From Hyphomicrobium album (GTDB lineage: Bacteria > Pseudomonadota > Alphaproteobacteria > Rhizobiales > Hyphomicrobiaceae), in the NCBI RefSeq assembly GCF_009708035.1, contig NZ_WMBQ01000001.1, positions 1,550,001 through 1,614,000 on the forward strand: a stretch of 64,000 bases of DNA, written 5' to 3'. A program made the position numbers and the translations under genes. Each line of letters begins with the position of its first letter. Within the stretch, counting starts at the first letter, position 1. This document shows positions 29,688 through 52,130 of the stretch, piece by piece. The notes below the pieces were generated by a model. It made no database searches. It was given only the letters and a program-made list of their open reading frames with translations, and was not told where the DNA came from.

Positions 29688-31229
29688 CTATCCGAACAGC
29701 CCGTGCAGGAACCAGCGCGGTAGCTCCTCGTCGCGCCCGTAAATGCCTTCGCGGAACACCCAGTAGCCGGCGCCGCCCTCATCCTCGATGCGGTAGTAGT
29801 CGCGCGTGCCGCTCTTCCTGGCGGCGATCTCGTCCCACCATTCGGGCGCCACGCGCTGCGGGCCTTGCGCCTTGAGGATGCGCCGCTCGACGCGCCGCCA
29901 GGTGAACCGCGCCGGCGGACCCTCCGGCACCTCGGCGATGACGCAAATCGGCTCCGGCTGCTCCAGGAGCAACGGCGGACGCGCCGGTCCGGGCGGCAGC
30001 GGCCAGGCAAGCTCGCGCGCGTGACTGAGCGCGGCAACGCGCGCCTCACTGCGCTCGGGGATATGACTGGCGTGCGCCTCGAGGCGCGTCACGCGCGATG
30101 CCCCGAGGCGATTGGCGAGACGATCGACGAGCTGCGCCGCATCGCCTCGAGCGTCGCCTTGCAAGCGCGGCGCGAGCGCACCCTGCTCAACGGGCGCCTT
30201 CTCCACTTGAACCGCCGCCAGCACCATGACCTCGACGCCGAAACCGGCATCGAGCGCGGCGAGCTTCTCATTTAGGAGCCCGGTCATGTGCTCGGGCGTC
30301 CACGATGGCGCGCTCAGGCCGGCGCGGGCCTCGGCGATGCTGCCGTCGGCGCGATAGAGCGACAGGCAGAGCCGGCGGGCGCCAAGCCCGCGCGATGCCA
30401 GATGAGTGCAAAGCTCCTCGGCGAGCCGCGCCGTCTCGGCTTCGAGCTGCTCGGGCGAGATGAGCGGATCGGGCCATGAGCGTTGCACATAGAGGGCCGG
30501 CGGCTCGATGAGCGGCCGGCACGGCTCGGAGCGCTCGCCCAGCGCCTGGTCGAGCCGCATCAGCACCGCCTCGACGCCCTTTGCCGAACGGAAGCGGCGC
30601 TGCAGGGCGGCGCGCGGCAGACGATAGAGATCGCCGATGCGCTTGAGGCCGAGTCGCTTCAAGAGCAGCACCGTATCGGGTGCGAGCCGCAGCGCTTCGA
30701 CCGGCAACCGCGCGAGGCAGGCTTCCGCCTCGCCTTCCGCGGCGATCGCCGGTGACGGCGCGAAGCGGGCCAACGCGTGCGCGGCGCCGAGCGTATCGGC
30801 GAGACCGACGCGTGCGGTCAGATGAAAGCGCGACAGCCTGTCGATGAGATCGCCGACGAGTTGCCTCTCGCCGCCATAGAGGTGCGCCACGCCGGTGATG
30901 TCGATCCACAGGCCGTCATCGCCGTCGATGTTGCGGTTGGGACCGTAGCGGCCACACCAGCGGGCGAGGCGCAACAGCGCCGTGCGGTCCCGGCGCCGAT
31001 CGGCCGGTTGCGTCAACAGCGCGGGCAAAGCTGCGCGCGCATCGGCGAGGGCCTGACCGATGCGCGCGCCTTGCTCCGCCGCTTGCGGGTTGACGGCGGT
31101 AATGCGGATGCCGTGCGTGCCCGCCTCGACCAGGGCGAGCGGCGCCTCACCGGGAACCAGCGATGGCTGCGCGCGGTGCATCCGCTCGATGGGCCACAGT
31201 GGCAGCCACACGGAAACGATGCGTTTCAT
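29688..31229 (-). CDS. imuB: ImuB, inactive Y-family polymerase homologue of the SOS mutasome
   Basis: 513 residues, starting MKRIVSVWLPLWPIERMHRA. It follows the Y-family layout (palm region, ARVGLADTLGAAHALARF, thumb with LPRAALQRRFRSAKG, little-finger domain). The catalytic acidic residues are missing: the position of the usual SxDE reads as GLWIDITGV. This is the known state of ImuB, which bridges DnaE2 to the sliding clamp rather than synthesising DNA. It overlaps imuA by 83 bases and is 3 bases from dnaE2. Confidence 0.92.
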   Translation of the reverse strand: MKRIVSVWLPLWPIERMHRAQPSLVPGEAPLALVEAGTHGIRITAVNPQAAEQGARIGQALADARAALPALLTQPADRRRDRTALLRLARWCGRYGPNRNIDGDDGLWIDITGVAHLYGGERQLVGDLIDRLSRFHLTARVGLADTLGAAHALARFAPSPAIAAEGEAEACLARLPVEALRLAPDTVLLLKRLGLKRIGDLYRLPRAALQRRFRSAKGVEAVLMRLDQALGERSEPCRPLIEPPALYVQRSWPDPLISPEQLEAETARLAEELCTHLASRGLGARRLCLSLYRADGSIAEARAGLSAPSWTPEHMTGLLNEKLAALDAGFGVEVMVLAAVQVEKAPVEQGALAPRLQGDARGDAAQLVDRLANRLGASRVTRLEAHASHIPERSEARVAALSHARELAWPLPPGPARPPLLLEQPEPICVIAEVPEGPPARFTWRRVERRILKAQGPQRVAPEWWDEIAARKSGTRDYYRIEDEGGAGYWVFREGIYGRDEELPRWFLHGLFG

Positions 31230-33690: not shown

Positions 33691-33704
33691 TTGTGCCCGC
33701 CGGC

Positions 33705-34694
33705 TCAGGTCGCCGGGGTAAGGCACGATTTCAAGCTGGCGGCGAGATTGCGCATCAGCTGGAAGTAGAGGCGTGGCCCGGGCTCGAGGCTCAACCCTTC
33801 CGGGTCGAGCGTCCCGGCCCGCGCATCGGTGTCCTCGATGACGGCAGCAACGAGAGCCGGCTGAAAAAACGGCTCGGCGAACACGCACACGGCCTTGAGC
33901 GAGCGGATCTTCCGGCGCAGCTCGGTCAGGCGTTTGGCGCTCGGCTGAACTTCGGGGCTCACGGTGATCGAGCCGACGGCATCGAGGCGGAAGCGCGCAT
34001 CGAAATACTGGTAGGCGTCGTGAAAGACGACGAACGGCCGGTCGCGCAGCGGCTGCGTCACGGCTTCGAGCTCGCTGGTCAGCGCGTCGATCTCGCCACG
34101 CAACCGCTCGGCGTTGGCCTTGAAGCGCTCGGCATGCTGCGGATAGCGCGCGCTGAGCACGCCGGCGACGTAATTGCCGATGACCTTGGCGTTGTCCGGG
34201 TCGAGCCAGAGGTGACTGTCCTTCACCGCGTCGTGGCTGTCGCCGGCGACATGGACGTGGTCGTCGAAGCTGCCGTCCTCGCGCCGGCTCAACAGCCTGA
34301 CGCCCGGCATGTCGGCGAGGGTCACGAGTTGCACGTCGTCCGGAAGGGAGCGAACGATCTTGCCGGTGAACGGCTCCAGCCGCTCGGACACGCGGATGAA
34401 CACCCCCGCCCTATTGATGGCGCGCACCTGCGACGGCCGGAGAGAGAAGCTATGTGGCGAGGCGGCCCCGTCGACCAGCAGCACCGGGACGCCGACCCCT
34501 TGCATCACCTGCGCGACCAGCGAATGGATGGGCTTGATGGTGACGACGACGTCGGTGACCTCGGCACGGGCCATCGCCGGGCCGAGGACAGCGACAAGCG
34601 CGGTAGCGAGGACAACCTGCCTCAACCTGGCGGCGAACGCGCCGAGCACAGTCTGTCCCAGCGTCCAGGGGGCGCCTGCCATGCGAATATCCAT
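33705..34694 (-). CDS. znuA: Zinc ABC transporter substrate-binding protein ZnuA-like
   Basis: Periplasmic cluster A-I metal receptor, about 329 residues with a signal peptide (VVLATALVAVLGPAMARA). It has the family start VVVTIKPIHSLVAQVMQGVG, the first metal His region SPHSFSLRPSQ, an Asp/His-rich loop (DGSFDDHVHVAGDSHDAVKD), SHLWLDPDNAKVI, and FVVFHDAYQYFDARFRLDAV. The start may be ATG 34694 or ATG 34682. No permease (znuB) or ATPase (znuC) gene is in the window, so its partners must lie elsewhere. It diverges from a DUF1007 gene, an association also seen with metal uptake loci. Confidence 0.9.
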   Translation of the reverse strand: MDIRMAGAPWTLGQTVLGAFAARLRQVVLATALVAVLGPAMARAEVTDVVVTIKPIHSLVAQVMQGVGVPVLLVDGAASPHSFSLRPSQVRAINRAGVFIRVSERLEPFTGKIVRSLPDDVQLVTLADMPGVRLLSRREDGSFDDHVHVAGDSHDAVKDSHLWLDPDNAKVIGNYVAGVLSARYPQHAERFKANAERLRGEIDALTSELEAVTQPLRDRPFVVFHDAYQYFDARFRLDAVGSITVSPEVQPSAKRLTELRRKIRSLKAVCVFAEPFFQPALVAAVIEDTDARAGTLDPEGLSLEPGPRLYFQLMRNLAASLKSCLTPAT

Positions 34695-34811
34695 CGATTG
34701 GTGGATGTGATAATATCCGGTGCAACCTATTCCAGCGCCGGCCATCACGCAACCGCCACGTTCCTGCTCCATCCCCTGGACTGGCTGCCGGCATCCGAGA
34801 GGAGAAGCGAA

Positions 34812-35510
34812 TTGCGCGCCCCGACATCGATACTCGCCATGGCGACGGCGGTCGCCGGTCTGAGCGGCGCGACCTCGCAGGCGCTCGCCCATCCGCACGT
34901 GTGGGTGACGATGAAGGAGACGGTCCTCTACGAAAAAGCGGCCATCACGGGCCTGCAGCAGGCGTGGACGTTCGACGAGATCTACACGCAACAGGCGATC
35001 GAAGGTCTCGATAAGAACGGCGACGGCAAGTACGACCGCGAGGAGCTGAAGGAGCTGGCGCAGGTCAACATCGACGGGCTCAAAGAGTTCGAATACTTCA
35101 CCTTCGCCAAGCTCGGCGACAAGCCGCTCAAATTCAATCCGCCGGTCGATTACTGGCTGGAGTACACCGACAAGGGCATCCTCACGCTGCACTTCACGCT
35201 GCCGCTCGAGCAACCAGTGCCGGCGGACGCCACGGGCTTTAATTTCGCGGTGTTCGATTCCAGCTACTTCATCGCTTTCGACTTCGCCGAGGCCGATCCG
35301 ATCAAGCTCAGCGCCAACGCCCCAACGACCTGCAAGCCGACGATCCACGAGCCGCCCGAAGACGCCGATACGCAGCAGTTGAGCGATGCGTTCTCAAGCG
35401 CGCTCGGCCAGAACGCGCAGCAGCCCGGCAGCAGCGGCCCGATGAGCGGTGGCGGCTCGGTCAGCATCGGCTCGAGCAGGAGCGTCGCCATCGAGTGCGC
35501 CAAGTCCTAG
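34812..35510 (+). CDS. DUF1007 family exported protein with an EF-hand-like loop
   Basis: About 232 residues starting at TTG 34812, seven bases after AGGAG. A signal sequence (ILAMATAVAGLSGATSQALA) is followed by HPHVWVTMKETVLYEK, the start of the DUF1007 domain. GLDKNGDGKYDREELKELA is a canonical EF-hand calcium loop. The C terminus is Ser/Gly-rich. DUF1007 genes often lie next to nickel/cobalt or zinc transporters; here the neighbour is znuA, with a shared divergent region of 117 bases. Biochemical role unknown. Confidence 0.85.
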   Translation: MRAPTSILAMATAVAGLSGATSQALAHPHVWVTMKETVLYEKAAITGLQQAWTFDEIYTQQAIEGLDKNGDGKYDREELKELAQVNIDGLKEFEYFTFAKLGDKPLKFNPPVDYWLEYTDKGILTLHFTLPLEQPVPADATGFNFAVFDSSYFIAFDFAEADPIKLSANAPTTCKPTIHEPPEDADTQQLSDAFSSALGQNAQQPGSSGPMSGGGSVSIGSSRSVAIECAKS

Positions 35511-38933: not shown

Positions 38934-39218
38934 TATCGTTCCCCTCGCAATGCTCAACGCAGCTCGCAACAATCCCCTCAGAGCGCCACTCCCGGTCACG
39001 ACCGAACGAGGCACCCCTTAGGGGTTTTCTTTTATCGGCGAAGGGATGAGCTATAGGTAGGAAAGCAAAGGCCCGTCAAGCGGTCAGCCCAGGGTTTGAG
39101 CGGTTTGCGCCCGGCAGTTAAGGGGTGCGGAAATCGGCCTCCGCAGCCCTGTGGCCAGGTTGCCGCACGAACCGCGCAGCCACTGAGCCCACGGGCCACA
39201 AAGAGCATCGCCCAAAGT

Positions 39219-40556
39219 ATGAGCGGACCGATCCACTCCGACCCGACAAACCTTACCGCTGCAGCCGCGGCCGAGGCCATCCGCGAAGGGCGGCTTTCGT
39301 CGGGGGAACTGGTCGCCGCCTGCCTCGACCGTATCGCCGCGCGCGACGCGCAGGTGCAAGCGTGGGAGTATCTCGACGCGGATCTGGCCCTGGCGCAGGC
39401 GGGCGAGGCAGATGCTGCGATCCGCCGCGGCGACCATTTGGGCCTGCTGCATGGTGTGCCCATCGGCATCAAGGACATCTTCGACACGTTCGATCTTCCC
39501 ACCGCCAACGGCTCGCCGATCTTCGATGGCCGCCGACCGGAGCGCGACGCTGCGTGCGTCGCGGCACTGCGCGCCGCGGGCGCGGTGATCTTGGGCAAGA
39601 CCGTAACGACGGAACTGGCGCTGCTCACGCCGGCGAGGACGCGCAATCCGCACAACCTCGAGCACACGCCGGGTGGCTCGTCGGCCGGCTCAGCGGCGGC
39701 TGTCGCGGACCATATGGTGCCGGCCGCGCTCGGCAGTCAGACCGCCGGCTCGATCATCCGGCCGGCTTCGTTCTGCGGCGTGTACGGCTTCAAGCCGACG
39801 CTCGGTCTCGTACCGCGCGCGGGCGTGCTGATGCAGTCGCACACGCTCGACACGGTCGGCGTTTACGGGCGATCGGTCGAGGACCTTGCGCTCATCACCG
39901 ACTGCATGACCGCCTTCGATCCGGAGGACGCGGCGAGTTTCCGGCGCGCGCGACCCGGCCTCGTCGGCACGGCACGGGCGAGGCCGCCGATCCCGCCGCG
40001 GCTTGCGTTCGTCAAGCCGCCGCCCTGGACGGATGCCGACCCCGACATGAAGGTGGCATTTGCGGAGCTGGTTGGGCGCTTCGGTGATCGGATCGTGGAA
40101 CTCGATCTTCCGCGGCTCGCGGACGTGGTCGAGTGGCAGCGCATCGTGCAGCTCGCGGAGAACGCCCACTACTACGGCCCGCTGTTGGACGAGGCGCCGC
40201 AGCACATATCGCCGGGGCTGGCGCAGCGGCTCAACGAAGGGCGGGCTGTCGACGCCCAGGAATATCTGCGTGCCATCACCGGACGCGAGCCCGCATATCG
40301 CGCCCTTGCCGCCGCGCTGAAAACGTTCAGCGCCATCCTTACGCCCGCCGCGATGGGTCCCGCGCCGCGCGGGCTGGGCGCCACAGGCAGCCCGATCATG
40401 AACGGGCTGTGGACCTACCTGGGCATGCCCGCGGTATCGCTGCCGCTGCTGCAGGTGCGTGGCATGCCGGTTGGTGTGCAGCTCGTCGGCCAACGGCATG
40501 ACGATGCGCGCCTGCTGCGCACGGCGCGCTGGCTGATGGCCGAGGTGGCTGGCTGA
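39219..40556 (+). CDS. Amidase signature family hydrolase
   Basis: 445 residues from ATG 39219. The catalytic Ser-cisSer-Lys triad is recognisable: Lys in VPIGIKDIFDTFDLPT, the cis-Ser in TPGGSSAGSAAAVADHM, and the nucleophile Ser in GSQTAGSIIRPASFCG. The C-terminal part (LGATGSPIMNGLWTYLGMPA, PVGVQLVGQRHDDARLLR) fits amidases of the GatA-like superfamily. It is not a GatA subunit, because no gatC or gatB is adjacent. Substrate unknown. Confidence 0.9.
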   Translation: MSGPIHSDPTNLTAAAAAEAIREGRLSSGELVAACLDRIAARDAQVQAWEYLDADLALAQAGEADAAIRRGDHLGLLHGVPIGIKDIFDTFDLPTANGSPIFDGRRPERDAACVAALRAAGAVILGKTVTTELALLTPARTRNPHNLEHTPGGSSAGSAAAVADHMVPAALGSQTAGSIIRPASFCGVYGFKPTLGLVPRAGVLMQSHTLDTVGVYGRSVEDLALITDCMTAFDPEDAASFRRARPGLVGTARARPPIPPRLAFVKPPPWTDADPDMKVAFAELVGRFGDRIVELDLPRLADVVEWQRIVQLAENAHYYGPLLDEAPQHISPGLAQRLNEGRAVDAQEYLRAITGREPAYRALAAALKTFSAILTPAAMGPAPRGLGATGSPIMNGLWTYLGMPAVSLPLLQVRGMPVGVQLVGQRHDDARLLRTARWLMAEVAG

Positions 40557-40574
40557 GCGCCTCCAAAAACAATT

Positions 40575-40605
40575 GAGGACGGAGCAGCCGCGCCGCTCCG
40601 TCCTC
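40575..40605 (-). terminator. Terminator of microprotein gene B
   Basis: A perfect 11-bp stem GAGGACGGAGC (40575-40585) with GCTCCGTCCTC (40595-40605). On the minus strand it is followed by a T-rich stretch (TTGTTTTT), so it is a good intrinsic terminator for the 36-codon gene. It may also help end the converging amidase transcript. Confidence 0.82.
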
Positions 40606-40630
40606 CTTCGTGCCGGTGCTCGAGCTCTAC

Positions 40631-40741
40631 TTAGCGCTCGTTGTTCGCGGGCGGCTGCGGCTGCTCAGCAGCGGGGCGCGGCTTCTGCATCTCGCCAGGG
40701 CGAGTCATCGCGGCACGGAATGCAACCATCATGGACTGCAT
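40631..40741 (-). CDS. Microprotein B (36 aa), paralogue of microprotein A
   Basis: Starts at ATG 40741 with GGAGGAG just upstream and stops at TAA 40631. The product begins MQSMMVAFRAAMTRPGEMQK and ends in a Pro/Gln/Glu-rich tail. It shares 16 of its first 20 residues with microprotein A. In codons 3-17 there are six synonymous differences and one amino-acid change, which indicates selection on a protein. The small hydrophobic MVAFRAAM stretch could be amphipathic or membrane-touching. I recognise no family. Confidence 0.72.
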   Translation of the reverse strand: MQSMMVAFRAAMTRPGEMQKPRPAAEQPQPPANNER

Positions 40742-40767
40742 CTTCAGTCTCCTCCGACGGTCCACTT

Positions 40768-40786
40768 GAGCGCGCCAATCGCGCTC
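40768..40786 (-). promoter_or_regulatory. Leader hairpin of microprotein gene B
   Basis: GAGCGCG-CCAAT-CGCGCTC, a perfect 7-bp stem with a 5-base loop, 26 bases before the ATG of microprotein B. An equivalent hairpin with identical stem arms lies before microprotein A, so it is a conserved part of the cassette. It may control translation or mRNA stability. Confidence 0.65.
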
Positions 40787-40886
40787 GCGAAAGCGACGTC
40801 GTTCACAGGGGGACTGAGATGGCCCCTCCCCCCCGCGATGCAAGTGGCCGGCATGATTTTTTTTGAGGGCGCGCTGCGCAAACAGC

Positions 40887-40919
40887 AAAGGGCGGATCGG
40901 CTCAGCCGATCCGCCCTTT
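40887..40919 (-). terminator. Terminator of microprotein gene A
   Basis: A perfect 16-bp inverted repeat, AAAGGGCGGATCGGCT (40887-40902) with AGCCGATCCGCCCTTT (40904-40919), lying 31 bases after the stop of the 33-codon gene. On the minus strand it is followed by a TTTG-CTGTTTG stretch. This supports the micro-ORF as a transcription unit of its own. Confidence 0.8.
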
Positions 40920-40950
40920 CATTTGCCGAGCGTCTCGTGCGCGCGTGGCG

Positions 40951-41052
40951 TCAGCGGCTCGGCTTGTCGGCCTGCTGCGGACGGGGTGCCGGCTTGGCAA
41001 GCTCGCCGGGACGAGTCATCGCAGCCTGAAACGCAACCATCATCGACAACAT
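40951..41052 (-). CDS. Microprotein A (33 aa), paralogue of microprotein B
   Basis: Starts at ATG 41052, seven bases after GAGGAG, and stops at TGA 40951. The product begins MLSMMVAFQAAMTRPGELAK and ends in a Pro/Gln/Lys tail. It lies downstream of a DUF4389 gene on the same strand, about 100 bases away, but has its own hairpin leader and terminator. Conservation with microprotein B is at the protein rather than the DNA level. Not recognised as any known family. Confidence 0.72.
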   Translation of the reverse strand: MLSMMVAFQAAMTRPGELAKPAPRPQQADKPSR

Positions 41053-41075
41053 CTGTTTGCTCCTCAATCATTGTC

Positions 41076-41094
41076 GAGCGCGACCACCGCGCTC
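41076..41094 (-). promoter_or_regulatory. Leader hairpin of microprotein gene A
   Basis: GAGCGCG-ACCAC-CGCGCTC, a perfect 7-bp stem, 23 bases upstream of the ATG of microprotein A. The stem arms are identical to those before microprotein B while the loop differs, which suggests the structure is what is conserved. Confidence 0.65.
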
Positions 41095-41158
41095 ATCGAG
41101 GGGCGGAGCAATAGTCGGTCGATGTGGTGCGCGCTGTTACACGCGCAACAGGGCGGCC

Positions 41159-41461
41159 TCAACTGGCCGGCGGCCAAGGCGCCCATGGGAACGGCTTCAC
41201 ATCGGTGGCGCCCGTCAGAAAGAGCGCCGTGTCAGCCAGCCAGCGGGCCAGCGACCGGCCGAAGTGCGTGAGCTGCACATTCGGCTCGCCGCTGAAAAGC
41301 AGCCACAGGAACTGCGCGATGGTCGTCACGCACAGCAGCATCTGGGCGACGCCGAATGCCAACACGAGCAGGAGCATGTAGAGGCCGCGCATCCAGATGG
41401 CGGTGTCGCCGAAACTGGACTTGCGTTGTTCTGTTGCGGGAACAGTCTGATCCGGTTCCAT
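41159..41461 (-). CDS. DUF4389 membrane protein
   Basis: 100 residues with one long or two short hydrophobic helices (LYMLLLVLAFGVAQMLLCVT and IAQFLWLLFSG) followed by FGRSLARWLADTALFLTG and KPFPWAPWP, matching the DUF4389 pattern. Function unknown. The ATG at 41461 is followed by a polar N terminus of about 20 residues. Microprotein A lies downstream on the same strand. Confidence 0.82.
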   Translation of the reverse strand: MEPDQTVPATEQRKSSFGDTAIWMRGLYMLLLVLAFGVAQMLLCVTTIAQFLWLLFSGEPNVQLTHFGRSLARWLADTALFLTGATDVKPFPWAPWPPAS

Positions 41462-41752
41462 GTTCGCTGTCTCCGTCTAGAGCACCGGGGGAAGGTACCT
41501 TGCGGCGCCGCCAGCAAGCGCGCGGCGTCTGCCCCTGTCAAGCTTGGTTGGCCATTTGAGCCCGGATTGCTGGTAGCGCGAAAGTAACCGACGATTGACT
41601 AGCTCCCGCTGCGGCACACATAATTGCGCCCGGTCGAGAGGCGACCGACGGTCCGCGTAAAGGGTTGAACCCACCTCCATCTGCAAGAAAATGTTGCATC
41701 TTCTTTCTTGCCCGTGACGCGGACGCCGGGCGCTTCAGAAAGAAGGTGTCCG

Positions 41753-43009
41753 ATGCCCAACAAGCTTCCGCCGCGTCCCGACCTTGCTTGGCTCAAGAAG
41801 GCCGCGAAAGAGCGTCTCGCCGGGCTCCGCAGCGGCGACCCTTCCGCAAAGCTCCATCAAGCTCAGCTCGACATTTCGAGAGAATACGGATTTGCAAGCT
41901 GGCGCGTGCTCAAGGAGCACGTCGACAGCGTCAGCCTCGATGGCCAAATCATAGCTGCCGCCGTAAGGGGCGACGCCCACGAGCTGGCTCGCCTGCTCGA
42001 TGAGCACCCGCGCAAGCTATCGATCACCGGCGGCCAATGGGGCACTCCGCTGTCGCACCTCGCCGCCGAGAACGGCCATCTCGACTGCGTCGAGGTGTTG
42101 CTCGCGCACGGCACCGACGTCAATCTGCGCGACAAGCTCGACCAGGCGACTGCACTGCATTGGGCGGCACAGGGTGGCCATCTGCGCGTGGTGGAACGTC
42201 TACTGGGCGCCGGCGCCGACATCGACGGCGAAGGGGACGCTCACGAGGCAGGCGTGATCGGCTGGGCAACGATCTTCCAGCACGTGCGCCGCGAGGCCGC
42301 CGACTATTTGCTGGCGCGGGGCGCCAAGCCGACCGTCTTCTCGTCGATCGTTCTCGGACGCGCCGACCTCATCGAGCGCGTGTTCGACGCCGATGCAAGT
42401 TTGGTGTCGCGACGGATGAGCAGGTTTGAAAATAGCCGCACGCCGCTGCATTTCGCCGTCTTGAAGAACCAGCCGGAAATCGTGGCGCTCCTGTTGCGGC
42501 GCGGCGCCGACCCAAAGGCCAAGGACGATCGCGGATTGACGCCCCTCAATGACGCGACGGCGCGGACGGACCGGCGGATCGTCGAAGCGCTGCTCGGCGC
42601 AGGCGCCGAGCGCCAGGAGTTGAGCGACAATCGCTTCAGCGAGGCCATTCCCATCCTCAACGTGAAGAGCGTCCCCGCGTCGATTGCCTACTATGTCGAG
42701 AAGCTCGGGTTCCGCAAGGAATGGGACTGGGGAGCACCAGCGACCTTCGGCTGCGTCAGCCGCGACGGCGTGAAGCTATTCCTGTGCCAAGGCGGACAGG
42801 GCTCGCCAGGCACATGGGTCTCCATCTTCGTGCAGGATGTCGATTTGCTGTTCGACGAATACCGCACGCACGGGGCCACCATTCGTCAGCCGCCGACGAA
42901 TTTCCCCTGGGGTCTGCGCGAGATGAATGTCGAAGATCTCGATGGGCACCGGCTGCGCATGGGAAGCGCCGCAACGGACAACGCAGATAGCGCTCCGCTC
43001 TGCGATTGA
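41753..43009 (+). CDS. Ankyrin-repeat protein fused to a VOC/glyoxalase-like domain
   Basis: 418 residues from ATG 41753 with AAGAAGG upstream. After a helical N terminus (LAWLKKAAKERLAGLRSGD), five or more ankyrin repeats follow (WGTPLSHLAAENGHLDCVEV, ATALHWAAQGGHLRVVERLL, RTPLHFAVLKNQPEIVALLL, LTPLNDATARTDRRIVEALL). Residues about 310-405 form a VOC domain (IPILNVKSVPASIAYYVEKL, WVSIFVQDVDLLFDEYRTHG, VEDLDGHRLRMGS), related to bleomycin-resistance and glyoxalase proteins. No signal peptide is present. The combination suggests ligand binding coupled to protein-protein interaction, but no substrate is known. Confidence 0.88.
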   Translation: MPNKLPPRPDLAWLKKAAKERLAGLRSGDPSAKLHQAQLDISREYGFASWRVLKEHVDSVSLDGQIIAAAVRGDAHELARLLDEHPRKLSITGGQWGTPLSHLAAENGHLDCVEVLLAHGTDVNLRDKLDQATALHWAAQGGHLRVVERLLGAGADIDGEGDAHEAGVIGWATIFQHVRREAADYLLARGAKPTVFSSIVLGRADLIERVFDADASLVSRRMSRFENSRTPLHFAVLKNQPEIVALLLRRGADPKAKDDRGLTPLNDATARTDRRIVEALLGAGAERQELSDNRFSEAIPILNVKSVPASIAYYVEKLGFRKEWDWGAPATFGCVSRDGVKLFLCQGGQGSPGTWVSIFVQDVDLLFDEYRTHGATIRQPPTNFPWGLREMNVEDLDGHRLRMGSAATDNADSAPLCD

Positions 43010-46016: not shown

Positions 46017-48722
46017 TCAGTAGTGGATTTTCATGCCGCCATAGGCCACGAGCGGCGGCGCTGGCGTAATGGTGCGCGGGTTGGTGAAGAAGTCGTCGCC
46101 CGTCGCCGGGTTTGCCTCGGAGGCTTCGTTCGCCGCTTCCAGATTGAAGAAGTTGCCGAACAGGCCGTACTGCGAGTTGAACAGGTTGTAGATTAGGCCG
46201 TAGAGCTGAACGTTCTCTGTCAGGTCGTAGAAGGTGTGCAGGTCGACCTTCGCGTAGCCGCTGAGCGGCGCGTTTAGGTTGGCTTCGTCGCCGTAGAAGA
46301 ACTGGCTCGAGGCGGCGACGAGGTCGGCGCCGAATTTCCACTCCGGCGTGATGAGGTAGTCGAAGCCGGTCTTGAAGCGGCTGAGCGGCACGCCCGGTAT
46401 CCGATCGCCGGAGTTGACCTGCAGACAGTTGGGTTCGTCGTCGGACGCTGGAGAGCCGGGTCCCTCTTCGCATTCGAACGCGAGAGGGTTGTCGGGTGAA
46501 GGCAGGATGAAGGCGCTCTGGAACGTGGCGTGGACGAGCGCATAGTTGGCGTAGAGCATCCAGCGCGCGTCAGTGTAACGGCCGCCGATTTCGATGCCCT
46601 GCCGCAGCGTGTCGCCGACGTTGTCGAAGTAGCCGCGTCCAGAGACCTCATCGGCAATCTGATAGATGTCGTCGGAGTTCAGGGCGCGGAACAGACCTGC
46701 GCTCCATTCGAAGCGCTCGCTGTTGTAGCCCTGCATCCTGCCGCGAAGCCCGAGCTCCCAGGTATGCGAGACGACCTGGTCGAGCGGCGGGTCGGCGGTG
46801 AGGAAGCTTTCGAGCAAGCACGGGAAGGCCGGATCCGAGCATGCGAGCTCAGCCGGTGTCGGCGCGCGGTTCGCCTCGGCATAGCCGGCGTAGAGCGTCA
46901 GGCCGGGATTCAGCAGGTACGTGGCGCCAACCATCGGGTTGAAGCGCTGGAAGGTGTTGTCGCCGTTGAGTTGGGGCTGGGTGCCAGTATCGTCCAGAAT
47001 CTGCACTCGGGCGAAATTGTAGCGACCGCCGACGGTCAAGGCGAGGTCGCTCGTCAGGTCGACCGTGTCGGAAAAATAGACGCCGTAGTAGTCGTTGATC
47101 GTCGTCAGATCGCGCGGGGACACCTCGCTTGGCGCGACGAGGAGAATGCCGAGGCTGTTGACGACGAACTTCGGCTCGAATGAGCCTAGGGTCGACGTGG
47201 CGCCATAGGCGACGTTGCCGCGATCGTAGCTGGCGCCGATCAGGAACTGGTTCTTGTAGCCGGCAATGGAGTCCTTGTTCACGGCCTGGCCCGAGAAGCC
47301 GAAGCTGTTGGCGACCTGCGACGTCTGGTCGAGCGAGCCGAGCGGATCGGCGATGTCCTCGGGTATCGAGCCGTCGGCATTGACTCCCGGGCCGATGCCG
47401 AAAAGCTGATCGTCGTCCTCGCCTTCTAGGCAGAGCACGCCGGGGATACCGTTGCACTCCTCCGCCTCGGAGATGTTGCCGTCGACGTGCGACTGCTTGA
47501 ACCAGCGGTAGTAGCCGACGCCCTGCAACGACCAGGTGGGCGACACCTCGATGTTGCCGTTGGCCGAGATCATCGCCACCTGGTTCTTGGTGGTCTGCGG
47601 CGACGTGAAGGTGTTTGCCCAGTTGAGATCGAGGAGCTGCTCGGGCGCCGCCGCCGTGACGCCGACGAAGTTCGCCGCACCGGTGAAGTTCAAATGGAAC
47701 TCGGTGCCGTCGCCCCTGGCGCCGAGGTCCGTGTACATGCGGCGGATGCGCGAGGCCGAGAAGTCGCGATAGCCGTCGTCGTGGATGCCTTCGAGGGCCA
47801 GGAAGCCGCCCCACGATCCACTGTTGGCGCCAACCGCCAACCCACCCTGGTAGCGGCCGAACGAGCCGCCCATCACGTTGAGCTCGGCGCCCTGATAGTT
47901 GAAGCCGTCGCGCATCATGATGGTCAGCGCGCCGCCCAGGGCGTTGAGGCCGAACACCGGGTTGGCGCCGATGATGGTCATGCCGCTGATGGCGTTGTCG
48001 GGCAGGAAGTCGTAGTTGACGATATCGCCGAAGCTCTCGTTGATGCGCACGCCGTTCTGGTAGACGGCAAGGCCCTGCGGCACGCCGTTGACCGGCGATG
48101 ATTCAAAACCGCGGTATTGCAGGTTGCGCTGGAACACGTTGCCCTGCGCGTCCTCGAGGATGACGCCGGGGACGGTCTGCTGCAGCACCTCCGGTGCATA
48201 CGTGTAGCCGGTGCGGTTGAAGTCCTCGGCGCTGCCGCGGCCGACGGCGCCAGGGTATTTGCCAATCGGGATGGCGCTGCCTTCAACCGGCGACATCTGC
48301 ACGCTGCCGCTGTCGATACCGCCCTCGCCCGGCTGATAGGTGGCAGGCGTGTCGAGCTGCGGCGGCGCCTCAGAGGGTGGTGCCGGGGCCGGCGCGACGG
48401 CCTGCTTCTTCGGAGCTTTTTTGGCGGCCGTCTTGGGGGCGGGTTGCGCCTTCTTTTGAATGATGTCGACGGGCGGCAATTGGGTCGCGGCGGGCGGTGC
48501 CGGAGTCGGAGCCGCAGCGTTCGGGGCTGCCGCACCCGGGGTGGTCGTGCCTGGCGTCGTGGTGCTGGGGGTCGTGGTGCTCGGGGTGGTCGCACCGCCG
48601 CCGGAAGGCGGGGTCTGCTGCGCCGGGGTGGTCGTTGGCGCCTGCTGAGCGCTGGCTGGACTACATAGCAAGGCCGCTACGCCCGCCGCCTGCACCAGCC
48701 GCCGCACTTGCCGACCCGCCAT
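46017..48722 (-). CDS. TonB-dependent outer-membrane receptor 1
   Basis: A 901-residue receptor from ATG 48722, with GAGGGGG upstream. After a signal peptide, a Thr/Pro-rich low-complexity stretch follows (about 28-75), then a likely TonB box (LPPVDIIQKK). The plug domain is clear (EVLQQTVPGVILEDAQGNVF, GLAVYQNGVRINESFGDIVN, NPVFGLNALGGALTIMMRDG), then a long 22-stranded-type barrel ending KIHY. It imports a scarce ligand using TonB energy; the ligand is unknown. It is clearly related to receptor 2, 0.3 kb upstream, and the TonB/ExbBD genes are nearby. Confidence 0.93.
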   Translation of the reverse strand: MAGRQVRRLVQAAGVAALLCSPASAQQAPTTTPAQQTPPSGGGATTPSTTTPSTTTPGTTTPGAAAPNAAAPTPAPPAATQLPPVDIIQKKAQPAPKTAAKKAPKKQAVAPAPAPPSEAPPQLDTPATYQPGEGGIDSGSVQMSPVEGSAIPIGKYPGAVGRGSAEDFNRTGYTYAPEVLQQTVPGVILEDAQGNVFQRNLQYRGFESSPVNGVPQGLAVYQNGVRINESFGDIVNYDFLPDNAISGMTIIGANPVFGLNALGGALTIMMRDGFNYQGAELNVMGGSFGRYQGGLAVGANSGSWGGFLALEGIHDDGYRDFSASRIRRMYTDLGARGDGTEFHLNFTGAANFVGVTAAAPEQLLDLNWANTFTSPQTTKNQVAMISANGNIEVSPTWSLQGVGYYRWFKQSHVDGNISEAEECNGIPGVLCLEGEDDDQLFGIGPGVNADGSIPEDIADPLGSLDQTSQVANSFGFSGQAVNKDSIAGYKNQFLIGASYDRGNVAYGATSTLGSFEPKFVVNSLGILLVAPSEVSPRDLTTINDYYGVYFSDTVDLTSDLALTVGGRYNFARVQILDDTGTQPQLNGDNTFQRFNPMVGATYLLNPGLTLYAGYAEANRAPTPAELACSDPAFPCLLESFLTADPPLDQVVSHTWELGLRGRMQGYNSERFEWSAGLFRALNSDDIYQIADEVSGRGYFDNVGDTLRQGIEIGGRYTDARWMLYANYALVHATFQSAFILPSPDNPLAFECEEGPGSPASDDEPNCLQVNSGDRIPGVPLSRFKTGFDYLITPEWKFGADLVAASSQFFYGDEANLNAPLSGYAKVDLHTFYDLTENVQLYGLIYNLFNSQYGLFGNFFNLEAANEASEANPATGDDFFTNPRTITPAPPLVAYGGMKIHY

Positions 48723-49060: not shown

Positions 49061-51511
49061 TCAGTAGCGCACCTTGACGCCGCCGTAGGCTGCGAAGGGC
49101 ATCGAAGGTGAGAAGGTCCGCGGATCGGTGAAGCCTGCACCGCCAAGTGCCTTATCAACGTTGCTCACCTCGCCGGATTCAAAGTACGTGCCGTAGAGTC
49201 CGTACTTCTGGTCAAACAGATTCTTCACGAGACCGTAGAGCTGAATGTTTTTGGTCACGTCGTAGGACGTGTTCAAGTCGACCCGGGTATAGGCGTCGAG
49301 AAAGTCGCCACCACCGGCCTCGTTCGGGAAGTACGGCCTGTCGCCGGATACGATGACATCGGCCCCGACCTTCCACGCGGACGTGAGCGCATACTCGGCA
49401 CCAACCTTGAAGAGGTGTCGAGGAATTCCCGGCAGCCGATCGCCGGCTACAAGGAACGCGCATTCACCGCTCGGGTCGTCACAGGTGTTGAGCGTTGCGT
49501 CTAAGAAAGCGTAGGACGCATAGCCGGTCCAATTGCGCGTTTCGTAGGTTGCCGACAACTCGAGGCCTTGGCGTAGCGTATCACCCGCATTGACGAAGAA
49601 GATGCGTTGGTTCTCCATGATGGGCAGGATGTCGTCGGAGGCAAGCGTACGGAACAGCCCGGCTGACCAGGTGTAGCGTCCGCCGTAGGAGGCACCTAGC
49701 CCCCGCAGGCCAAGCTCTGCCGTGCGCCCAACCACTTGTTTCAGCGGCGGGTCGTCCGTCAGAAAACTCTCGATGAGGCAGGGATTCTCTGGTTCTGCGC
49801 AACCGAGCTCTGCTGGCGTCGGAGCGCGGTTCGATTCCGAGTAACCGCCATACACCGAGATGCCAGGCAGCAGCTTGTAGTTGGCGCCGATCACGGGATT
49901 GAAGCGCTCATATGTGTTGGTGGCGTTGAGGTCAGGGAACTTCCCCGTCAAATCCGTTAATTGGATCGTCGCACGATTGTAGCGGCCTCCCACCGTGACA
50001 GTGAGTTCGTCGGTCACGTCCAGCGCATCAGAGAGATAAACACCCCAATAGGTGTTCTCGGCGTTGAGATTGCGTGGGGCGAGTTCATCGCCTTCATCCG
50101 GGTCGTGCTCTACGCCGCCGACGAACACGCCAGTGCCCGTAACAACGTACTTTGGCTGGATCACGCCCATCTCGCTGGACGTCTTATAGTTTGACTTACC
50201 TTGGTCGTAGGAAACACCGGCAAGAAACAGGTTCGATAGGCCGAACAGCTTGGCCTTCTCTTGCCCTTCCACCACGCCGCCCCAGCTTTCGCTGGTTGTC
50301 GCTAGACGCTCGATGGAGCCCAACCGATCGTCCGGGGCGATATCGGAATCGATGTCGTCGCCGTTGAGATCGAAGACATTTTCATCCTCGAGGCACAGTT
50401 CATCGTCATCCGGTGCTGGGCATGGTTCGATCTCGGTAACGTTGCCGTCGACAACGCGATTCTTGAAGCGGCGGTAGTAGCCCACGCCCGAGAGCGTCAG
50501 CGTGTCGGTCGCCTTCACCGAGGCCGACAACGACGGCATGTAGACTTCGACATCAGTCGTCTGCGGCGAGGTGAAGGTATTGCTCCAGCTACGCGCGAGC
50601 AACTCGACAGGTGCGGCTGCGGTGGCGCCGAAATGGTTGTCCGCCGCGGTCAGATTGAAATGAACTTCGGCGAACGTGCCCTTGAGGCCAATGTCGCCGT
50701 AGAACCGGCGCACTTCGCTTTCAGAGAAATCGCGATAGCCGTCGTCCTCGAACCACTCGCCGGCAACATAGACGCCGGCGTTGCCGAACGCTTCACCCGC
50801 CTGGATGCCGACCTGCTTGCGACCGAACGAACCGGCCATCAAGTCGACCTCCCCGCCCTGGTAGGAGAAGCCGTCCTTCATCAGGATGCTGATGGCGCCG
50901 CCGAGTGCGTTCAAGCCGAACGATGGGTTGTTGCTGACCACCGACATGGACGAGATGGCGTTGCTGGGGATCGCATCCCAGTTCACCACGTCGCCGAAGG
51001 CCTCATTGATGCGCACGCCGTTCTGGTAGATCGCGAGGCCCTGCGCGCGGCCGCTGACGGGCGACGCATCGAAGCCGCGGAACGACAGCTCACCGCGCAA
51101 AATGTTGCCGGCGGCGTCGGAAATGAAGGTACCTGGCACTTTCTGCACGAGCGTCTGCTGGATCGAGCCGGTGCCTTCATGCTCGATGTCGGTGTCGGTG
51201 ACGTTGGTCACTGCGCTCGGCACAGTGATCGGTGCGGCGACCGGGATTGCGGTTGGCGCGCCGGTCGCGGTCTGCGTAGAGACGCCTGGCGGCGCGCTGC
51301 TGACGCTGCTGAGCGGAGACACTGCGGGCGCCTTTTTCTTGGCGCGCGCGGCCTTCTTTGCAGGCGTGTCCTGCACGACTTCGACTGCTGGCAGTTCCTC
51401 AACGCTGGAGGCGGCGGCGCCGCCTGCGTCCTGGGCGAGCGCCGGTCCAACGGCGAAGCTCGCAAATAGTACAAGACACAATACGGACGCAGACGCGGAC
51501 GCAGTACGCAT
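49061..51511 (-). CDS. TonB-dependent outer-membrane receptor 2
   Basis: About 816 residues from ATG 51511 (GGGGGAG seven bases upstream; a GTG sits one codon earlier). Signal peptide, then a likely TonB box (LPAVEVVQDTP) and an Ala/Pro-rich linker. The plug has VQKVPGTFISDAAGNILRGE, GLAIYQNGVRINEAFGDVVN and NPSFGLNALGGAISILMKDG; the barrel ends GGVKVRY. It shares whole phrases with receptor 1 (APTPAELGC, SDDILPIMEN at matching places), so the pair arose by duplication. Ligand not deducible. Confidence 0.93.
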   Translation of the reverse strand: MRTASASASVLCLVLFASFAVGPALAQDAGGAAASSVEELPAVEVVQDTPAKKAARAKKKAPAVSPLSSVSSAPPGVSTQTATGAPTAIPVAAPITVPSAVTNVTDTDIEHEGTGSIQQTLVQKVPGTFISDAAGNILRGELSFRGFDASPVSGRAQGLAIYQNGVRINEAFGDVVNWDAIPSNAISSMSVVSNNPSFGLNALGGAISILMKDGFSYQGGEVDLMAGSFGRKQVGIQAGEAFGNAGVYVAGEWFEDDGYRDFSESEVRRFYGDIGLKGTFAEVHFNLTAADNHFGATAAAPVELLARSWSNTFTSPQTTDVEVYMPSLSASVKATDTLTLSGVGYYRRFKNRVVDGNVTEIEPCPAPDDDELCLEDENVFDLNGDDIDSDIAPDDRLGSIERLATTSESWGGVVEGQEKAKLFGLSNLFLAGVSYDQGKSNYKTSSEMGVIQPKYVVTGTGVFVGGVEHDPDEGDELAPRNLNAENTYWGVYLSDALDVTDELTVTVGGRYNRATIQLTDLTGKFPDLNATNTYERFNPVIGANYKLLPGISVYGGYSESNRAPTPAELGCAEPENPCLIESFLTDDPPLKQVVGRTAELGLRGLGASYGGRYTWSAGLFRTLASDDILPIMENQRIFFVNAGDTLRQGLELSATYETRNWTGYASYAFLDATLNTCDDPSGECAFLVAGDRLPGIPRHLFKVGAEYALTSAWKVGADVIVSGDRPYFPNEAGGGDFLDAYTRVDLNTSYDVTKNIQLYGLVKNLFDQKYGLYGTYFESGEVSNVDKALGGAGFTDPRTFSPSMPFAAYGGVKVRY

Positions 51512-52130
51512 CACTCAACTCCCCCAGAGTACGCGAGGTGACTATTTCACCCGACTATTTTCCGGCTGGAGTTACCTCGAGCTGCCACCGCTCGCCCCTC
51601 CCCGCCGATCGTCGGCCGTCTGCAAGTTTTTCCCGTTGACCGGAATATTTTTCGCCGACGGACGTAATTAACTGCCGCTACAAAAATCCGGATGCCTCAT
51701 TGCGGTCAAGGTTCGCGCGGCCCGTTACACTATAGCGATCTGGCGGTGTGACTTTTGCGCATCGAAATCGGGAATAATTCCCGAATGCTATGGGAGAACT
51801 TCCCGGACACGAAGGTGTGTTTTTCCGTGTTTGACAGGGCTCATCTGCGCGGTGTTACTTCGTTACCGACGCCGACCGATGGAAGAGTGGAAGACGCAGG
51901 TTTGCGCGGCAAGAAAAACAGAGCTGATCCGCGCGACAGTGCGCGAGACGCAGCCGAGGGAGGAGAACGTTCATGCGCGAGCCGCATGCACGCTAGCCAG
52001 CGATGATCGAGAACCACAGCGCCAAGGCACAATTCGCTTATGCCATTAAGCGCTTGATGGCACTGGCAAACTACGACGCCATATTGAGCTGCCGAGCTAG
52101 TCCATGACCTGGTTGCGACCCGTGAGTGCA
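51512..52130. other. Divergent regulatory region receptor 2 / TonB operon (619 bases)
   Basis: No convincing gene lies here; small open frames have no ribosome binding sites. Features: a CGGGAATAATTCCCG palindrome (51769-51783), a related GGGAGAACTTCCC site (51792-51804), and TTGACA (51831-51836) about 30 bases further on, which could be a -35 of the exbB operon promoter. The region therefore likely holds the promoters of both receptor 2 and the TonB operon. Confidence 0.5.
51769..51804. promoter_or_regulatory. Candidate operator cluster between receptor 2 and the TonB operon
   Basis: CGGGAATAATTCCCG (51769-51783, arms CGGGAAT and ATTCCCG around one A) is followed eight bases later by GGGAGAACTTCCC, a weaker version. 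A matching palindrome (CGGGAATTTTTCCCG) lies upstream of receptor 1. Its position between two divergent transcription units suits a shared regulator site. Confidence 0.5.

Follow-up and report, generated by a model that had tools for sequence, protein, structure and literature searches.

The locus lies in the window, a 64,000-nucleotide stretch of the Hyphomicrobium album genome, and contains two minute open reading frames (ORFs) on the minus strand, placed between a DUF4389 protein gene upstream on the same strand and a convergent amidase gene (Table 1). The sequence-only reading had reported ORFs of 33 and 36 amino acids, and both are present as claimed, confirming its overall observation. 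Each ORF forms part of a unit whose order is the same in both copies: a leader dyad, a strong Shine-Dalgarno (SD) sequence, the ORF (33 or 36 codons) and a hairpin rich in GC. The excellent SD sites asserted for both ORFs were borne out, reading GAGGAG for ORF 1 and GGAGGAG for ORF 2. The leader dyad GAGCGCG-N5-CGCGCTC, overlooked by the sequence-only reading, occupies the same position in both units, its stems being identical and its loops different. A role of the dyad as regulon operator was rejected, as only three other exact sites occur in the genome, all within larger reading frames, while sites with up to one mismatch number 17 against 19 for a reversed control (as counted, the exact sites alone being read). 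Sequestration of the SD as a common device was likewise rejected, as it is not shared among loci.

Table 1. Features of the two microprotein units and their flanks (window coordinates).
Feature	Position	Strand	Remarks
Amidase gene, convergent flank	39096..40556	+	PF01425, E 6.7e-83; start codon putative
Stretch between DUF4389 and amidase stop codons, both units inside	40557..41158		602 bp
Intrinsic terminator, unit 2	40575..40605	-	U-tract; on terminator-scan list
Microprotein ORF 2, MQSMMVAFRAAMTRPGEMQKPRPAAEQPQPPANNER	40631..40741	-	36 aa; sequence
Shine-Dalgarno GGAGGAG of ORF 2	40749..40755	-	sequence
Leader dyad GAGCGCG-ATTGG-CGCGCTC, unit 2	40768..40786	-	sequence, repeat and motif scans
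3' hairpin, unit 1	40887..40919	-	folding; no clean U-run; absent from terminator-scan list
Microprotein ORF 1, MLSMMVAFQAAMTRPGELAKPAPRPQQADKPSR	40951..41052	-	33 aa; sequence
Shine-Dalgarno GAGGAG of ORF 1	41060..41065	-	sequence
Leader dyad GAGCGCG-GTGGT-CGCGCTC, unit 1	41076..41094	-	sequence, repeat and motif scans
DUF4389 protein gene, upstream flank, same strand as units	41159..41461	-	PF14333, E 1.4e-23
12-mer, end of DUF4389 gene	41160..41171		11/12 repeat at 40841-40852, ahead of unit 2

The 3' hairpins of the two copies are alike, none of 2000 mononucleotide shuffles attaining their score, and their stems display, over 13 aligned pairs, two double (compensatory) changes and one change from G-C to G-T. 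The proposal that each ORF has its own terminator holds well for ORF 2, with its U-tract and its place on the scan list, and may or may not hold for ORF 1, whose hairpin lacks a clean U-run and is absent from that list; the unit-1 hairpin is a very strong fold nonetheless, with a z of -5.0 for the stretch tested. The terminator scan returned 2 sites in 1.2 kb, compared with 1.3 expected in shuffles. Over codons 3-17, ORF 1 and ORF 2 differ at eight nucleotides, distributed 0/1/7 over codon positions 1, 2 and 3 (Fisher p = 0.0009, third against first plus second; p = 0.024 over codons 1-20), which corresponds to synonymous differences in six codons and an amino-acid change in one (CAG/CGT), exactly as the sequence-only reading had counted them.

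As read from its alignment, the pair is a tandem duplication of the whole unit, comprising leader dyad, SD, ORF and 3' hairpin. The best ungapped repeat between the units extends over 94 nt with the copies 311 bp apart, and a gapped alignment spans the dyad through the 3' hairpin. Likeness was not significant for the C-terminal tails together with the 3' leaders (shuffle p 0.11), nor for the DNA upstream of the two dyads (shuffle p 0.15). Ahead of unit 2 there is a second copy of the 12-mer from the end of the DUF4389 gene, the two lying 319 apart, near-equal to the 311 of the units, which suggests that the tandem duplication included the end of that gene; the 12-mer may possibly mark the edge of the duplicated segment. 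The pS of 0.69 within the pair makes the duplication look old. The GC content of the 602-bp stretch is 0.646, against 0.66 for the window.

Several other genes of the window were recorded in passing. The plus-strand gene at 41708-43009 encodes ankyrin repeats (Pfam E 7.9e-31) fused to a C-terminal glyoxalase/bleomycin-resistance-type domain (E 1.1e-10), a fusion that looked unusual. Two TonB-dependent receptor genes lie in tandem on the minus strand (46017-48722 and 49061-51514), and a minus-strand gene at 29688-31229 encodes a Y-family polymerase-like (IMS) protein, possibly the ImuB of a mutagenesis cassette. A 605-aa frame at 33693-35510 (+) has DUF1007 as its only Pfam match at E 0.001, over residues 388-569, its first 380 residues having none.

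Ordinary searches for relatives of the two microproteins yielded no match that was accepted. Direct protein searches returned three weak matches beside the two ORFs in the same genome and hits in 5 of 60 related genomes at E <=0.1, namely the window's own and four others; all seven foreign or weak matches were discarded. A degenerate pattern allowing three mismatches recovered, among 297 genomes of the order, the window's genome alone; a looser pattern, also with three mismatches, matched 41 of 103 genomes of the taxonomic family, a background level, and the 29 loci read beside the window were rejected. The two-sequence profile matched 7 of 385 genomes of the class, the six foreign loci being rejected after reading, while in genome contigs of ~85,000 species the exact pattern gave no match and a shorter pattern four, all rejected. 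Pattern searches of viral contigs gave 0, 36, 0 and 0 matches, the 36 resembling the family in nothing but the pattern, and scanning the same material with a profile gave seven pattern matches and no confirmed relative. Plasmid searches returned 1, 0, 0, 2, 13 and 3 records, none convincing, and a phage search 14 records, all with E of 7-10. A plasmid or viral origin of the microproteins was rejected on these searches.

The first homologues emerged from a model, R1, that was built from both window units and combined the leader, the SD and the first 20 codons. Whereas the plain protein and pattern searches had found no homologues elsewhere, R1 identified, among the 103 genomes of the taxonomic family, three accepted homologues of 44-49 aa in genus g25, in genomes G335 (E 6.7e-9), G332 (2.2e-7) and G337 (6.7e-6), which begin at the expected ATG with MQGHMITFRAAMTRPGELEK..., MQGHMIAFQSAMTRSGEMVK... 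and MQGHMIVFEAAMTCRGELEK..., respectively. An SD is present in G335 and G332, and G337 has only a purine-rich stretch instead. At E <=1, R1 matched 89 of the 103 genomes, including 6 of the 7 other genomes of the same genus, so that most of its list is background; 24 returned loci beside the window were read to accept these three, and in 20 further R1 stretches a script screen found no SD-led start carrying the motif. The third-ranked foreign match, G359 (5.2e-6), was rejected, its frame lacking the Phe and Gly-Glu positions; it sits in a palindromic stretch that we take to resemble a repeat known from Rhizobiales.

Two further homologues were accepted with later profiles. Profile A4 matched 12 of 103 genomes at E <=0.1, and reading of all ten places apart from the window genome's own and the g25 loci led to acceptance of G375 of genus g22 (E 0.007), with a 46-aa ORF, MNSDLILFRYAMTRPGDLPVANRMNAFEAAWIAANNLYRRLFGAKN, and an SD at the matching start. 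Profile A5 matched 121 of 395 genomes at E <=0.3, including the same-genus G002 at 0.249 (unread); reading covered the returned loci and four fetched places, and thus a minority of the entries weaker than E ~0.03, and G058 from another family of the order was accepted (E 7.7e-8; MLNQMIVFRAAMTRSGEMEY..., 64 aa), although its SD (AAGGA) is poorer and its assembly shows 6% contamination. Profile A6 matched 10 of 385 genomes, the window's own and nine foreign loci, all of them read, of which G522 was kept as a candidate. A profile built from the window pair only recovers all five homologues in the fetched loci, with E from 2.8e-8 to 0.005 (Z = 100000). The accepted family is sparse, occurring in 3 of 9 g25 genomes, 1 of 4 g22 genomes and, the window's own included, 5 of 103 genomes of the taxonomic family; outside the latter, G058 is the one accepted genome among the 395 searched with A5. 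Such small proteins escape annotation and ordinary homology search, as illustrated by the contrast with the single-protein search, the exact patterns and the two-sequence profile, which brought no accepted relative.

In G332, G335 and G337 and in G375 the microprotein gene lies between hppA and bamE, in the conserved order hppA, microprotein, bamE, Ubiq_cyt_C_chap and DUF177, followed as far as the contigs reach by plsX and fabH (identity across loci was tested; the names DUF177, plsX and fabH are those we presume for these neighbours). hppA encodes an H+-pyrophosphatase and Ubiq_cyt_C_chap is a ubiquinol-cytochrome c chaperone. A CMD-family gene separates hppA from the microprotein gene in the three g25 genomes, and ~2.5 kb of other sequence does so in G375. 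This conserved position, as judged from gene order, is independent evidence of a gene, and hppA-bamE provides a syntenic place in which further members may be sought. Beyond the g25 copies bamE is convergent. When the window units were tested as leader peptides or attenuators, no gene that they might regulate was found beyond them on their strand, unit 1 being followed on its strand by unit 2 only and unit 2 by the convergent amidase gene. Because the gene beyond them is convergent, the window units and the g25 copies are not leader peptides of the next gene.

The window pair is located elsewhere than hppA-bamE. The DUF4389 gene is present in 5 of the 7 other genomes of the same genus; in G003, G005 and G006 the amidase gene adjoins it, with stop codons 1, 3 and 9 bp apart that leave no space for a unit, and at the G001 and G002 loci no amidase was found. 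None of the seven genomes has an accepted copy at E <=0.1 by protein search or by the A4 profile, and none of the weaker same-genus matches of the R1 and A5 searches, which were partly read, was accepted. The absence of accepted copies from these genomes indicates that, at this site, the pair is peculiar to this lineage, which may reflect either gain here or loss in its relatives.

The seven proteins, two from the window and five homologues, share the motif M-x3-[ML][IV]-x-F-x2-AMT[RC]-x-G[ED][LM], with M1, F8, A11, M12, T13 and G16 invariant over the seven heads. Purifying selection on the reading frame, as the sequence-only reading had proposed, is supported by a pN/pS of 0.10 over codons 2-17 of the window pair. 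Over the same codons, 20 of the 21 pairs of the seven proteins have pN/pS of 0.10-0.59 (0.14-0.34 within g25 and 0.25-0.59 in the remaining pairs), the sole exception being ORF 1 against G375 at 1.16, while pS ranges from 0.33 to 0.93. Three independent pairs pooled give a pN/pS of 0.32 (Fisher p = 5e-6). These codon comparisons show a pattern of purifying selection on the first 17-20 residues. In G335 against G332, the pN/pS is 0.19 for the head (codons 2-20) compared with 0.66 for the tail (codons 21-44).

The tails following this common head are of different kinds. Those of the window proteins are Pro/Gln-rich and devoid of a membrane span (KD19 maximum 0.76 and -0.06), those of the g25 and g22 proteins are helix-like as judged by eye, and that of G058 comprises a transmembrane span with a hydropathy maximum of 2.18 at residue 41, the maximum in the other six proteins being 1.11 or less. 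AlphaFold2 modelled the ORF 1 protein as a helix at residues 2-12 followed by coil, with low confidence (mean pLDDT of 72 over residues 1-10, pTM 0.26). The short amphipathic segment described in the sequence-only reading was not upheld: residues 1-14 have an unremarkable helical moment, one reached by 47-81% of same-residue shuffles across the seven proteins. With no special amphipathicity in the N-terminal stretch, the argument for membrane contact built on it falls. That interpretation is thus partly supported, its new family under purifying selection standing and its amphipathic segment not.

Two wider candidates were retained. They are G522, from another order of the class (MNGHMILFRSAL..., MNGHMILFRSALAGSGKG...; 52 aa with a hydrophobic C-terminal tail), and G385, from the same taxonomic family as the window genome (MQSHMILFRSAG..., MQSHMILFRSAGRDAYDDD...), which has a strong SD and a frame that passes, by eye, through a terminator-like hairpin. 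Their resemblance to the family is confined to the first 11 residues, and their tails are different. Their individual E-values, 5.5e-4 for G522 (385 genomes) and 0.0375 for G385 (395 genomes), are not decisive, and neither was recovered in the fetched loci by the window-pair-only profile. The word HMILFRSA is common to the SD-led starts of G522 (L190:1501-1656) and G385 (L183), both on the minus strand, and this mutual agreement is suggestive. A modular family can tentatively be envisaged, although we would not expect it on balance, in which one conserved N-terminal docking or targeting module of ~17 residues, with the core M-x3-[ML][IV]-x-F-[RQE]-x-AMT, is borne by unrelated disordered, helical and transmembrane tails across the order and perhaps the class.

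Comparison with catalogues gave no match above cut-off for the window proteins in Pfam, NCBIfam, PHROGs or PADLOC, none for the ORF 1 protein among PDB sequences, none for the five homologues in Pfam or NCBIfam and none for two homologues in PADLOC; the G058 protein has a sub-threshold resemblance to DUF1634 (E 0.029, 14.9 bits against a cut-off of 27.5). At gathering score, no Rfam family was found in the window or in the seven homologue and candidate loci, and at E <=1 four sub-threshold matches were returned, the best at 0.091, all on the unit-1 hairpin. With no catalogue match and with homologues outside the window genome, the designation of a new small-protein family is supported. In the open-licence literature no paper was found carrying the family's peptide words, nor any on Hyphomicrobium small proteins or sORFs. 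In Sinorhizobium meliloti, Ribo-seq and proteogenomics revealed sORF-encoded proteins of 70 aa or less, CydX being named among small proteins, of which some are conserved in Hyphomicrobiales, some have a transmembrane helix and most have functions that cannot be predicted (PMC10117765). The window family is distinguished by a conserved head with different tails. To CydX-type subunits the likeness is one of working only, that of a tiny protein docking on a membrane complex. CydX spans the membrane and is encoded together with its oxidase, in contrast with the window units, which stand alone and whose proteins have no membrane span.

The interpretation considered probable here is that both ORFs are translated and, as tandem duplicates, belong to a hitherto undescribed family of alphaproteobacterial microproteins, with a conserved head that would serve in docking. 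Retention of the leader dyad and the 3' hairpin in both copies, with the two compensatory changes in the 3' stem, and the stand-alone position of units of which the second has a terminator, are also what would be expected of a dual-function small mRNA, a ~200-nt transcript whose main function would be RNA-based regulation by way of its leader hairpin, with the peptide secondary. This is rather unlikely: selection acts on amino acids across genera, the window dyad was not seen in the homologue leaders of G335, G337, G375 and G058, the hairpin carried by the G332 leader is a different one, and the Rfam comparison at gathering score is empty for the window and all seven loci.

The remaining explanations are more improbable still. 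RiPP precursor peptides have a conserved N-terminus and a variable C-terminus, and the head-to-tail difference in pN/pS between G335 and G332 and the tandem copies in the window would suit RiPP-like precursors with an N-terminal leader and a C-terminal core; this is nevertheless a slim prospect, since the tail of G058 is a transmembrane helix and no modifying or maturation enzyme was found among 15 neighbours in the window or 7 neighbours of G058 and G337. Toxins of type I toxin-antitoxin systems, such as Ldr and Ibs, which occur in tandem arrays, are likewise tiny and made from strongly folded mRNAs, and size, tandem layout and the transmembrane tail of G058 point in that direction. Their chances are slimmer yet, as the window copies, unlike Ldr and Ibs, are not hydrophobic, their KD19 maxima being too low for a membrane span, and no PADLOC match was obtained; as regards an antisense RNA, the scan listed one weak plus-strand promoter-like site (9/12) at 41043-41071. 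That the ORFs are chance frames or decayed remnants of a larger gene could draw on there being only two accepted copies in this genome and none in seven same-genus genomes. We give this the least credence of all, given the synonymous bias, the SD sites and the orthologues that two other genera carry at a conserved place; as far as gene order and codon substitutions can tell, it is already contradicted by the hppA-bamE synteny and the pN/pS values.

Under the preferred reading of a translated microprotein family, each unit would be independently transcribed and would yield a microprotein, whose dose would be set by its own promoter and, in the window, by gene duplication. The conserved N-terminal stretch, on the strength of its conservation, may act as a docking module, short and probably helical, for a single conserved partner, while the exchangeable tail, whether Pro/Gln-rich, helix-like or transmembrane, would set the location of the peptide. 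With no controlled gene downstream, the microprotein would most likely serve a complex in or near the membrane as its small adaptor or regulator. The family offers a compact conserved head for pull-down experiments and a natural duplication for comparison. Were the modular reading true, a single receptor would be addressed from solution, from the membrane surface and from the membrane by different small proteins, and this would be a new short targeting signal in bacteria.
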